Source: a virus | Reading direction: 5' to 3' (one strand) | Virus record (IMG/VR): IMGVR_UViG_3300020060_000013 | Span: 1 to 46,616 of that record | Length of the DNA stretch: 46,616 bases | The notes under the pieces: generated by a model | Databases searched by the model: none | What the model saw: the letters and a program-made list of their open reading frames with translations, nothing else | What the model was told of the DNA's origin: nothing | Part shown: positions 8,043-12,173 of the stretch, piece by piece | Numbering within the stretch: position 1 is the first letter of the stretch | Layout: every line of letters starts with the position of its first letter | Position numbers and translations under genes: made by a program

Positions 8043-11000
8043 CTAGCCCTTCAACTTGTCGGGGTCGATCACCCAGAGTTCTTCTGCGTACAGAGCTCGC
8101 CTATACTCGCGCCTTTTCATGCCGCGCACCAACAGGAGATGCTTTTTCGGATTCAACTCCCACAGGACATCTTTGTACTTCTCATACAACCCTCGGTAGC
8201 GATGAACCGTGATGGTGATCGGGCCGGTCTCATCTTCTCCGAGGATCACTGCCCAGTTGACGAACTGCGGCTCCTTCACGGTCGAGGGGTCAAGCTCCTC
8301 GCCAGTACGACTGCGGTGCAGCTCGTACAAGTCCTTGAGGTTGCGGTCCCGCACGGCCACCAACAGCACATGCTGCCCTAGCTTCGGCTCGTACGGTACG
8401 TCTTCGGCCCGACTGGTAGGCCTTCGCATGAAGTTGGAATCAGCGTGACGGTTCAACCAGCCTCGGGCCTTACCCAGTCGGTTAGCCAACAGATCAATCC
8501 CGAACGGGTCGTCCTGACCAACGAAGGTCGCAACCTTCTCCATGGTCACCGGCCCGATGCCGCTCACCGCAGTGAAGTCCTCCCACCGAGTAAATCCTAC
8601 TGGCAGTGCAGCGCCGGACTTAGCTAGCGCGAGCCGATCACCATTGTCTCGCCACTCGACCATCGGAATGGCTGTCTTGGCGCCAATACCCGGAATCTGT
8701 TCGAATCCAGCGAGCAATGCCTTGCCGCTGACCGACCATGTGGCCTGGCTGCGGTCGGGATCAGGCGGGAGGATTTTGATGCCCTTCTTGACCGCCTCCT
8801 TGAGGATGTCGAAACCCTTTGTTTTGGGGTCATACTTCTGAAGAGCTGCGCAGTAGAACTCCAGCGGGTAATGCACCTTCAACCACATGGTATTATGAAC
8901 AACGATACCGTTGGCCAAGAAGTTGTGCGGCTCGCCTTCCATGGCAATGTCATACATCACCATGTCACGAACGGGCTCAATAGATTTCACGGTATCCCAG
9001 ACAATGTTCTCTCCTCGACGAAGAGGATCCTCCTCAAATACCCAATGGAGCTTATCTTCGAAGTCGTCTGGGTAGACAACCTGAACGGCATCGTCTTCTT
9101 CGTACTTGTCGAAATAGTATTCGACCCTACGTTTCCAGGTCGGGGATCCCATCTCAACATAAACCCCCTTCACAAGGAAGTCGGCAACGCCACCGCTCGC
9201 CAGCGGTACTTGATGTTCGTGTTCTATTTCACCCTCTACGAGCCACGCGCATAATGCCTTCTCATAAGCACTATGTGTTGCCTGGCCGCATAATCCAACT
9301 CCCAAGCGACCAGCAGCCTTCGCAGCCCCTTCTATAAAGGGCAGTGTTTTGGCAGCTTTCTCTTCTGCGTTGAGAGACTCCCAGGTAGACCTCCACGTAG
9401 CTACACCAGTTCCGCGAGATTTATCTAGTCCTCGAAGTTGTCTCTGCCGCGAGCTTTCAGTAGCCCTAGCCCACGCCTTCTTGTTGCCTGCACCAACTTT
9501 CTCGCGCACGTCCTGGCGGTCAGACATGGCCGAATATCGCTTTTCTGCCGCCACGAGATCGCCAACTTCAATTTCCTCTAAGCGCTTGTAACCATTCGGC
9601 GTCAGGATCAGATGTCTTTCGCTACAAGTAAGATGCTTGCCACTGCTAGTCACCATCTCCCATCCGAACTTAAGATTTGCGTTCTTTGCCCCCGTGGTTC
9701 TAACAACCTGCTGGACCTTACCAGGAATAGTCTTACCGGTCTCGGGATCGTAACAGGCAATACGACCGACACCTTCTCGATATGCCTTGGCCACAGTGAT
9801 GTATTTCTTATTATCCCAGTCATAAACCTTCGTTTTACCGGCCACGCACCAATAGGCGATCATTGCGTACGAGATCGAGTGAGCCGAGTTGAACGCGTAC
9901 GCTCCGGCAGTCACCAGTTGCTTCCATATCTTGCCAGCGCTGACGTCCTTGACACCATTCTGCTTGCAGCCGTCCATGAACAATTGCTGCATGCGGTTGA
10001 ACGCCTGCTCACCTTGCTTCTTAGAGATCAGCTTACGGATCTGCGCGGCCTGCTCCCACGAGAAGTTGGCGAGCTTGCGGACCACCTGGAGAATCTGCTC
10101 CTGATACACGATCTGATAGTTGGTCCACTGCGTAATCTCGTCAACGACGGGATGCAGGTGCTCGGCTGGCTTACGGCCATGTTTTATCTGAATGTACTCG
10201 GCTGCCGCCCCGCTATGTAACGGTCCGGGCCTACTCAGTGCGTTGATATCGCCAATCTCCATGAAGTTGTCTGGCTTGACCTCGCGATTGACGCTCCGCA
10301 TAGCGCGACCATCGAATTGAAAGATGCCTACGACCTCGTTGCGCTTGAATGCTTCGAAGACTTCTTCTTCATCAAGCGGTACCTCGTACAGCTCTTCTAG
10401 CGTCATACCCACCATGGCCAGGCACCGCGCAATGACGTTCATTGTTAGCAGACCCAATGCGTCAATCTTGAGCGCATTGATGTATTCCGCGTCGTATTTA
10501 TCGATGCTCAACACATTGCGCATGGTCTTGGTCTTGGCGTCCTCGCGACTGTAGACCGCCACGCCATTGGTGAGCGGCTCGTCGGCCACTACCAGTCCGG
10601 CCGCGTGCACGCTGAACCCCTTGAGACCGCCCTCGAGCCGCTGCGCCAATCGCAGCTTTGGGTGCTTCTTGAATATGGCCGCAATCTTCGGGAACATAGC
10701 TTCAGAGTCTTCAATGGTGGTGTTCCCGCGCAGGTCGCCTGACGACCGCTCGATGATCATCTCTTTGACGGTGTCGACGTCAACCTGTGGAATGCGGTAT
10801 ACCCGAGCGATGTCGTCAAGGCTGTTCTTGCCCTTATAGTTCGTGACCGTCGCGATGTTGCCCACATGCTCTTCGCCATACATGTCAACGAGATGCTGCC
10901 GAACCTCCCAACGCCTCTCATCGTCAAAATCGAGGTCGATGTCCGGGAGGTCATGCCTGTTCTCGTCGACGAACCGCTCGAACAATAGGGTGGGGAACAG

Positions 11001-12173
11001 CATCGGATTGACTTCGGTAATGCGCAATAGATAGCACGCCAGGGAGGCTGCGGCAGAGCCTCGAGCAGGGCCGACTGCGATATCGGAGTTCTTAGCCCAA
11101 CGGACCACTTCGCTGATCGTCAGGAAGTAATCGGCGAAGCCTTTGGGAATGATGAGCCCGAGCTCGTACTTGAGTCGCTCAACGTAGCGGCGCTGCTCCT
11201 TGGCGCTCAACGAGCTCAGGCCGCGATATTTCCATCCTCGCCGACACCACTCCCAGATCAGTTCATCGCTCGGCTTGTCGCCGGGGAACTTGAGCTCTTG
11301 GAATTTCGGAATGGTGACGTTGCACCGGTCCATGATTTCGATGGTGCTACCCATCGCTTCCGTCGCCTCTCCGTAGCTGAGCCCGGTACGCAGGAGCTCG
11401 CCGTAGATCACGTCCGGCTTGCGCGGCGACAGGTCGAGGTCATATTCCCAGCTCTGAGACTGGGCTTCAACCGTATTGTTGCGGCCACCGCGATCGATGG
11501 CGTGAATGACCGGATACATGTCTTTGAAGCTCGGGTCCGGGTAATGGCAGTCCAGCGTAGCCACCAGCGGGATTTCTAGTCGAGCACCGAGCCGCGCCAG
11601 TTCCTCGTTGAAAGCGCGTTGCTTGCGGAGCTGTGGGTGTGGCATGACCTCGAGGTAGTACCGATCACCGAACAGGTCAGCGAACCACCCCGCCACCTTC
11701 TCCGCAGCCTTGCGGTCGGGGCGTTCCTTCTCCGGGGTTCCCTTGCCGCCGAACATCGCGGTAGAGAGCAGACCACCAAGACAGCCGCTCATCACGATCA
11801 GACCCTCGTTGTACTTCACGAGCATCTCGCTAGTAACAGTTGGCTTGTAACGAAAGTCGACCCAGCTCTGAGATACCAACCTATTCAGATTCTGAAAACC
11901 TTCGGGTGTTTCAGCCAACACAGTGAGATGGTTTTTAAGTTGACCTCTCTCGTCTCCGGTCTCGGTATAGATCTCGCATCCGAAGAGAGGCTTGATACCG
12001 GCAGCCAGGCAGTGCTTCTCAAGCTTGATATGACCCGTCACGTTGCCATGGTCCGTGAGAGCCATTCCGGGGTAGCCAAGCGCTGCCGCTGCTTTGACGT
12101 GCTCCTCGACCGGTCGGAGACCATCCCCATACGAATTCGTTCCGTGCCAATGAAGATTGACGAACTGTCTCAA
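8043..12173 (-). CDS. dnaE: DNA polymerase III alpha subunit (DnaE-type replicative polymerase) containing an intein
   Basis: The 1,376-residue product carries an N-terminal PHP domain (H8xH10, TDH at 40-42, GCEIY at 65-69) and the family C polymerase core: GPARGSAAASLACYLL (368-383), PDIDLDF with D411 and D413, and D571 in KIDALGLLT. After splicing out the 319-residue intein the exteins total 1,057 residues, close to bacterial DnaE and so probably the phage's main replicase. The start is a TTG at 12173 with a strong GGAGG five bases upstream; the first residues (QFVNLHWHGTNSYGDG) already belong to the PHP domain, so no other start fits. A 57-bp leader with two hairpins precedes it. A small OB-like or HhH region follows the intein (GIGAKTAI, SGIGPVTMEKV). 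Confidence 0.95.
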   Translation of the reverse strand: MRQFVNLHWHGTNSYGDGLRPVEEHVKAAAALGYPGMALTDHGNVTGHIKLEKHCLAAGIKPLFGCEIYTETGDERGQLKNHLTVLAETPEGFQNLNRLVSQSWVDFRYKPTVTSEMLVKYNEGLIVMSGCLGGLLSTAMFGGKGTPEKERPDRKAAEKVAGWFADLFGDRYYLEVMPHPQLRKQRAFNEELARLGARLEIPLVATLDCHYPDPSFKDMYPVIHAIDRGGRNNTVEAQSQSWEYDLDLSPRKPDVIYGELLRTGLSYGEATEAMGSTIEIMDRCNVTIPKFQELKFPGDKPSDELIWEWCRRGWKYRGLSSLSAKEQRRYVERLKYELGLIIPKGFADYFLTISEVVRWAKNSDIAVGPARGSAAASLACYLLRITEVNPMLFPTLLFERFVDENRHDLPDIDLDFDDERRWEVRQHLVDMYGEEHVGNIATVTNYKGKNSLDDIARVYRIPQVDVDTVKEMIIERSSGDLRGNTTIEDSEAMFPKIAAIFKKHPKLRLAQRLEGGLKGFSVHAAGLVVADEPLTNGVAVYSREDAKTKTMRNVLSIDKYDAEYINALKIDALGLLTMNVIARCLAMVGMTLEELYEVPLDEEEVFEAFKRNEVVGIFQFDGRAMRSVNREVKPDNFMEIGDINALSRPGPLHSGAAAEYIQIKHGRKPAEHLHPVVDEITQWTNYQIVYQEQILQVVRKLANFSWEQAAQIRKLISKKQGEQAFNRMQQLFMDGCKQNGVKDVSAGKIWKQLVTAGAYAFNSAHSISYAMIAYWCVAGKTKVYDWDNKKYITVAKAYREGVGRIACYDPETGKTIPGKVQQVVRTTGAKNANLKFGWEMVTSSGKHLTCSERHLILTPNGYKRLEEIEVGDLVAAEKRYSAMSDRQDVREKVGAGNKKAWARATESSRQRQLRGLDKSRGTGVATWRSTWESLNAEEKAAKTLPFIEGAAKAAGRLGVGLCGQATHSAYEKALCAWLVEGEIEHEHQVPLASGGVADFLVKGVYVEMGSPTWKRRVEYYFDKYEEDDAVQVVYPDDFEDKLHWVFEEDPLRRGENIVWDTVKSIEPVRDMVMYDIAMEGEPHNFLANGIVVHNTMWLKVHYPLEFYCAALQKYDPKTKGFDILKEAVKKGIKILPPDPDRSQATWSVSGKALLAGFEQIPGIGAKTAIPMVEWRDNGDRLALAKSGAALPVGFTRWEDFTAVSGIGPVTMEKVATFVGQDDPFGIDLLANRLGKARGWLNRHADSNFMRRPTSRAEDVPYEPKLGQHVLLVAVRDRNLKDLYELHRSRTGEELDPSTVKEPQFVNWAVILGEDETGPITITVHRYRGLYEKYKDVLWELNPKKHLLLVRGMKRREYRRALYAEELWVIDPDKLKG
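8892..9848 (-). mobile_element. Intein within DnaE (319 aa) with PD-(D/E)XK-type endonuclease domain
   Basis: The intein spans DnaE residues 776-1094. It starts with C776 (CVAGKTKVYDW, block A), has a block B variant ending S851-E-R-H854, block F (YDIAMEGEPHNF) and block G VVH1093-N1094, followed by extein Thr1095. Extein sequence resumes exactly (MIAYW|TMWLKVHYP), so splicing should restore a normal polymerase. Between blocks B and F there is no LAGLIDADG or HNH motif. Instead E971 (YEKAL), Q988, D998 (ADFLV) and E1007 (VYVEMG) match the layout of a Vsr-like / EDxHD PD-(D/E)XK nuclease, preceded by a basic region (about 885-960) that may bind DNA. Confidence 0.92.

Follow-up and report, generated by a model that had tools for sequence, protein, structure and literature searches.

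A contiguous intein in a phage DnaE with a predicted, divergent nuclease domain of the PD-(D/E)XK/Vsr-like fold

Fractured genes, in which a split intein carries a gene for an EDxHD endonuclease between its two halves, were reportedly described by Dassa et al. in 2009. The endonucleases of inteins mostly belong to the LAGLIDADG family, HNH, His-Cys box and GIY-YIG being the other families named (PMC7765530), and EDxHD/Vsr-type enzymes have been placed in introns or in free-standing genes (PMC3943268, PMC12350094). A group I intron is the source of I-Bth0305I (PMC3943268), and the homing endonuclease genes of phage group I and group II introns include a large, mostly unannotated EDxHD/Vsr homing-nuclease outgroup (PMC12350094, 2025). 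The stretch of DNA analysed here, hereafter the window, is 46,616 bases long and comes from a phage record in IMG/VR; it probably harbours a mobile contiguous intein in the phage DnaE, equipped with a divergent homing nuclease of the PD-(D/E)XK type, which would splice, cleave its presumed target and home.

The host gene of this intein is dnaE, which codes for the alpha subunit of DNA polymerase III (8043-12173, minus strand; 1376 aa, with PHP, polymerase, fingers and HHH domains), as indicated by matches of the ORF to PF07733, PF17657, PF02811 and PF14579 in Pfam and to phrog_405 (E 4e-291). The intein, of 319 aa (8892-9848, minus strand), comprises DnaE residues 776-1094 and lies between W775 and T1095 (AYW|TMWLK, the bar marking the insertion point), its limits being set by splicing profiles, by relatives with an empty site and by alignment to the intein of the related contig L022. 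Its first residues are CVAGKT and its last are VVHN, so the junctions are W|C and N|T, with Thr at the +1 position. Both the Pfam profile Intein_splicing (PF14890; E 1.6e-12, 47.9 bits with a cut-off of 35.8) and the NCBIfam profile intein_Cterm (TIGR01443; 22.2 with a cut-off of 15.6) match it, and it has the complete set of splicing blocks (A, B, F and G).

Residues 1-104 of the intein (9537-9848, minus strand) form the N-terminal HINT part needed for splicing, which contains Cys1, block A (CVAGKT) and block B, as seen from sequence and alignment. Block B reads S76-E-R-H79 (SERH, 9612-9623), with Ser where Thr is usual, a feature that had been pointed out in the original prediction; since two related inteins read SSDH and TMEH and, therefore, have Ser and Thr in this place, it is an ordinary variant. 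This part is followed by a basic linker, residues 105-186 (9291-9536, minus strand), for which helices are predicted with low confidence and which may be a DNA-recognition segment, and by the predicted PD-(D/E)XK/Vsr-like nuclease domain, residues 187-275 (9024-9290, minus strand), delimited by an AlphaFold2 model, a fold match and a leave-one-out profile. The C-terminal splicing part, residues 276-319 (8892-9023, minus strand), is covered by PF14890 and TIGR01443 and holds block F, MYDIAMEGEPHNF, and block G, LANGIVVHN; H308, H318 and N319 are invariant in the alignment of this intein with its relatives. The adjacent extein residue in the sequence, Thr1095 (8889-8891, minus strand), would act as nucleophile in the second step of splicing, and this position is T or C in the relatives. 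The residues of a full-length class 1 intein are thus complete (C1, S76-E-R-H79, H308, H318, N319 and T+1) and, judged by its sequence, the insert is a contiguous class 1 intein that would be expected to splice.

In seven close IMG/VR relatives (L007, L008, L023, L024, L026, L027 and L030), DnaE reads ...LAYW|TMWLK... unbroken, with an arrangement like ..NSAHCVSYGLLAYW|TMWLKVKYPLEFY.. and no insert; two of them were measured, at 72% and 75% identity in DnaE, and two more distant DnaE proteins (L009 and L005) are likewise empty at this site. Since these relatives run through without a break, the junctions of the intein are certain, and the original prediction of a full DnaE intein with blocks A, B, F and G and exact junctions is borne out by the splicing profiles together with these relatives. 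A profile of the intein gave no match in the contigs of the seven close relatives. Moreover, GC3 is 0.52 in the intein versus 0.72 in the exteins, which fits a recent acquisition.

The survey of DnaE homologues with and without the insert thus gave nine empty sites, and it also gave related inteins, one at the identical site and one nearby. L022, a phage contig of 104 kb that was found with the junction peptide, has its DnaE interrupted at this very site (AFW|C...VVHN|C) by an intein with about 39-43% identity to the window intein over the whole length, insert included, while the intein of L110/L106 is displaced downstream by exactly three codons (DMW|C...VVHN|C) and shares 35% identity overall. 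The nuclease is conserved in both L022 and L110, and the inserts of the three inteins have pairwise identities from 34% (lowest) to 51% (highest). The same domain forms the C-terminal portion of two free-standing phage proteins, L103 and L116, which resemble homing endonucleases and contain HTH-like repeats. L110/L106 and L103 were found through a DNA pattern for ADFxxxGVYVE and L116 through a second pattern. The scans of the collections for relatives depend on short exact patterns, and the family of the nuclease domain consists of five sequences only (window, L022, L110, L103 and L116). A profile built without the window sequence finds the insert as its sole real match among all ORFs of the window (E 2e-9) and, therefore, the homology of the insert is far beyond chance; a profile made from the two free-standing proteins only also finds it (E 1e-5). 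Direct peptide scans of viral contigs and GTDB genomes, with the intein or with the insert alone, retrieved no new relative, and at the sensitivity used none of the isolated phages among 50,697 records carries the nuclease domain.

Several other matches were discarded. The closest annotated phage intein by sequence, that of the phiTE/CB7 helicase, has an insert of the LAGLIDADG type; the matches of the insert in a Gordonia terminase, in a T4-like baseplate gene and in Microbacterium were judged to be due to chance, with E values of 2-10 and with genes of ordinary length or on the opposite strand; and an alignment to Rhodovastum through the insert is spurious; the nuclease hidden in the Rhodovastum intein is another one and lies out of frame.

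The nuclease domain was modelled by AlphaFold2 from the five-sequence alignment with a pLDDT of 75 and a pTM of 0.67 (for the entire intein, three sequences gave only a poor model with a pLDDT of 40), and the predicted elements, H15-26, E31-36, E42-47, E50-54, H59-72 and E77-80, followed by a last helix, give the alpha-beta-beta-beta-alpha-beta-alpha topology of the PD-(D/E)XK core, so the structure prediction yields a nuclease fold, as anticipated. In a Foldseek search of the PDB, chains B and A of 3R3P, the catalytic domain of I-Bth0305I, ranked first and third, with probabilities of 0.93 and 0.90, TM values of 0.55-0.57 and E values of 0.1-0.2, which are suggestive, not statistically strong, for a predicted model. 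Among viral models, the fold matches were to endonucleases, DUF559, endonuclease I, NUMOD3 and homing endonucleases, two of them with E below 0.001.

The candidate catalytic residues of the domain are E196 (E971 of DnaE; 9261-9263), D223 (D998; 9180-9182) and E232 (E1007; 9153-9155), all on the minus strand, and the three are invariant in the inteins of the window, L022 and L110 and in the free-standing L103 and L116; S193, W202, H210, R240, Y244 and K248 of the intein are likewise invariant across the three inteins. The layout E971, Q988, D998 and E1007 that had been proposed is, therefore, found with each residue in its place, but only the E/D/E triad is invariant, whereas the position of Q988 is Q, Q or E in the three inteins. 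The position of the ExK lysine is occupied by G234 (9147-9149, minus strand), in the sequence E-M-G, whereas the four relatives have D, D, W and D there; the window copy has EMGS where its two nearest relatives, L022 and L110, have EYDG. After E1007 the window reads MGSPTWKRRVEYYFDKYEE, with no His, and L022 and L110 also lack a His in that place.

Scans of the insert against Pfam, PHROG and NCBIfam matched no nuclease family, LAGLIDADG and HNH included, which agrees with the earlier claim that the nuclease is of neither type. This lack of matches would also be an argument for an unrelated domain without nuclease function, or for a decayed LAGLIDADG or HNH remnant; such an origin is very improbable, however, because the structure model and the fold search point to a nuclease, the E/D/E residues are invariant and in the expected order, homologous free-standing nucleases exist in phages, and no LAGLIDADG or HNH signal appears, whereas in neighbouring DnaE inteins an HNH pattern is easily recognised by eye. 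The profiles of the nearest nuclease families were negative as well. Thus, neither Vsr (PF03852) nor T7 endonuclease I (PF05367) matched the window at E <= 10, the Vsr profile matching in control genomes; DUF559 (PF04480) matched nothing in the window, while the same search found other domains in G001 and G002; and NUMOD3 (PF07460) gave no match in the linker, so that the profile search for NUMOD and Vsr domains, by which the proposed class was to be checked, came out negative for both.

The insert has the core fold and the helix Glu with an acidic pair that define the PD-(D/E)XK superfamily but lacks the catalytic Lys of (D/E)XK, and it has the fold of the EDxHD catalytic domain (3R3P first, E 0.099) but lacks the motif His after the second strand Asp, so it would count as an EDxHD enzyme by its predicted fold alone. 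Since the family profiles are negative, the EDxHD His is missing and the ExK Lys is replaced by Gly, the domain is best described, on the basis of the model, as divergent within the PD-(D/E)XK/Vsr-like fold and not as a member of Vsr or DUF559. The Vsr/EDxHD-type class given in the original prediction, hence, holds for the fold, with I-Bth0305I as the nearest structure, and not for the family, as the Vsr and DUF559 profiles are negative and the His and Lys absent. The domain may belong to the EDxHD/Vsr homing-nuclease outgroup of phage introns (PMC12350094).

A descent from the lineage of T7 endonuclease I and of phrog_5928, a family of nucleases encoded next to phage helicase genes, instead of from Vsr/EDxHD enzymes, would reduce the likeness to I-Bth0305I to a shared fold. 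This is a serious possibility, if a somewhat doubtful one. The first match of the five-domain profile in the PDB was T7 endonuclease I (1M0D, E 0.25), whose catalytic E20, D55 and E65 align to E971, D998 and E1007, and the phrog_5928 proteins gave the best match overall. In profile-profile comparisons, the score was 32.9 for the T7 endonuclease I family (best of 40 column shuffles, 21.3), 18.7 for E. coli Vsr (best of 40, 13.9) and 52.4 for phrog_5928 (best of 40, 15.2), the latter comparison being partly selected, since the intein itself had been the query that led to the first member of this family. For four DUF559 domains, hhalign gave 13.9, which is not significant as the best shuffle reached 15.3. 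By sequence, the nuclease seems equally close to T7 endonuclease I and to the helicase-neighbour nuclease of phages, and the negative Vsr and DUF559 profiles are in line with such an origin. However, the fold search places I-Bth0305I first and not T7 endonuclease I, and the EYDG motif in L022 and L110 is similar to the E-x-D-G that the DUF559/EDxHD nucleases of these same phages contain.

Whatever its origin, the nuclease of the window could be catalytically dead, because the ExK Lys is Gly and EMGS replaces EYDG. The intein would then still splice and be inherited, homing would have stopped, and the window copy would represent a decay stage of the homing cycle, in agreement with the absent Lys, with the departure from the EYDG of the nearest relatives and with the degradation of DGHxV to CGQAT. 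Such decay is unlikely, though, as the fold has been kept across 34% identity together with the acidic triad and with R240, Y244 and K248, the reading frame has no stops or frameshifts, the low GC3 suggests a recent arrival, and the free-standing L103 also lacks the Lys (EVWG), which implies that the third position varies.

For an active mobile intein, the likely course of events would be as follows. The HINT half-domains would splice the intein out of the polymerase by means of Cys1, the Ser/Thr-x-x-His motif, His308, His318-Asn319 and Thr+1. The intein sits in the active-site region of the phage DnaE, and the most likely target of its nuclease is the conserved AYW|TMWLK stretch of dnaE, which would be recognised and cut in co-infecting phages where it is free of the intein; with the copy that bears the intein as template, repair could then spread the intein, that is, homing.

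The DnaE locus of L110 (L128; G002, 11549-4662, minus strand) holds three inteins. Intein 1 is fractured into an ORF for the N-terminal half, a separate ORF for a DUF559-type nuclease and an ORF for the C-terminal half, which looks to have its own ribosome-binding site. Intein 2 is the contiguous intein of the window type. Intein 3 is also contiguous, and its nuclease passes the cut-offs of both Vsr (30.5 bits, cut-off 27) and DUF559 (45.9, cut-off 20.6); by eye, it looks to lie in the C-terminal part of the protein, in a fused uracil-DNA glycosylase region. Vsr-type nucleases thus do occur in contiguous inteins, since intein 3 carries a true domain of this family. The earlier statement that most known EDxHD nucleases are free-standing or belong to split inteins agrees with the papers cited here, but needs to be amended by this Vsr/DUF559 domain in a contiguous intein. 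On balance, it is somewhat probable that some phage DnaE inteins form a clade of their own, whose members home by means of a PD-(D/E)XK nuclease of Vsr-like fold within a contiguous intein, and that phage polymerase genes have kept consecutive stages in the capture of a nuclease, that is, the gene within a split intein, the in-frame Vsr domain and the window type, all of them in the DnaE of L110/G002. If contiguous inteins with a nuclease of PD-(D/E)XK fold do form a small clade at one DnaE site, intein mobility would be open to this fold as well. Such a clade would also provide a testable series from a free homing nuclease to part of an intein, and would add candidate site-specific nucleases of unusually small size (about 90 aa).

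Other inteins and nucleases were observed in the same searches. At least five intein insertion points, with two classes of nuclease, fall within about 35 residues in the region of DnaE residues 755-780, as compiled from L022, L025, L028, L029, L041, L110, L125 and the window. The second of the three DnaE inteins of L022 (L022:3387-4230) has an HNH-like insert and appears to start with Thr (FNK|TVGRSAMV), and an N-terminal Thr is unusual for an intein. In G001, a DUF559/Vsr-like gene (L129; 65529-66176, plus strand; PF04480, 47.2 bits) lies out of frame in the ORF 64427-66955, nested within an uninterrupted helicase intein; a hidden out-of-frame HNH is known (PMC11855218), which L129 recalls, but L129 is inside an intein and its nuclease is Vsr-like. 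Similarly placed is an out-of-frame ORF that is overprinted, from L013:3637, on the intein of the SNF2 gene of the Rhodovastum plasmid RHOApe, with a zinc-ribbon-like start and a weak match to MTES_1575/DUF559 (20.0 and 17.0 bits, below the cut-offs). In many phages, the gene immediately ahead of an SNF2/DEAD helicase gene codes for a small PD-(D/E)XK nuclease without a Pfam family (phrog_5928; L014:3414-3761 and relatives), which is sometimes annotated as Cas4-like. Arthrobacter phage Wollypog and the Microbacterium phages Ajin and Erudite have their DnaE divided over a first gene of about 310-345 aa and a second of about 740-765 aa, which are separated by zero to two small genes, in one case an HNH gene; a fractured intein was considered for this arrangement and rejected, as the break is at the end of the PHP domain and there is no sign of an intein.

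Among known systems, I-Bth0305I shares with the window domain the fold, the role as a phage homing endonuclease, the helix Glu and the strand Asp, but identity is only 13-14%, and the window domain lies inside a contiguous intein and has no motif His. The EDxHD/Vsr homing endonuclease genes of PMC12350094 sit in introns and are accompanied by CapR-like repeats, whereas the window domain is in an intein. T7 endonuclease I (PF05367), despite its aligned catalytic residues, is a free Holliday-junction resolvase with ExK, where the window has EMG. The inteins of Gordonia phage Wojtek (L125) and of L025, L028, L029 and L041 are contiguous and occupy the same stretch of 35 DnaE residues, but they differ in their sites (YAF|N, K|SHS and DDL|C) and in their inserts, which show an HNH-type Cys/His pattern. 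Fractured genes, like the window, combine replication genes, HINT domains and a nuclease of Vsr-like fold, and L110 has this arrangement at another DnaE site; in the window, however, the nuclease is in frame within one uninterrupted intein.
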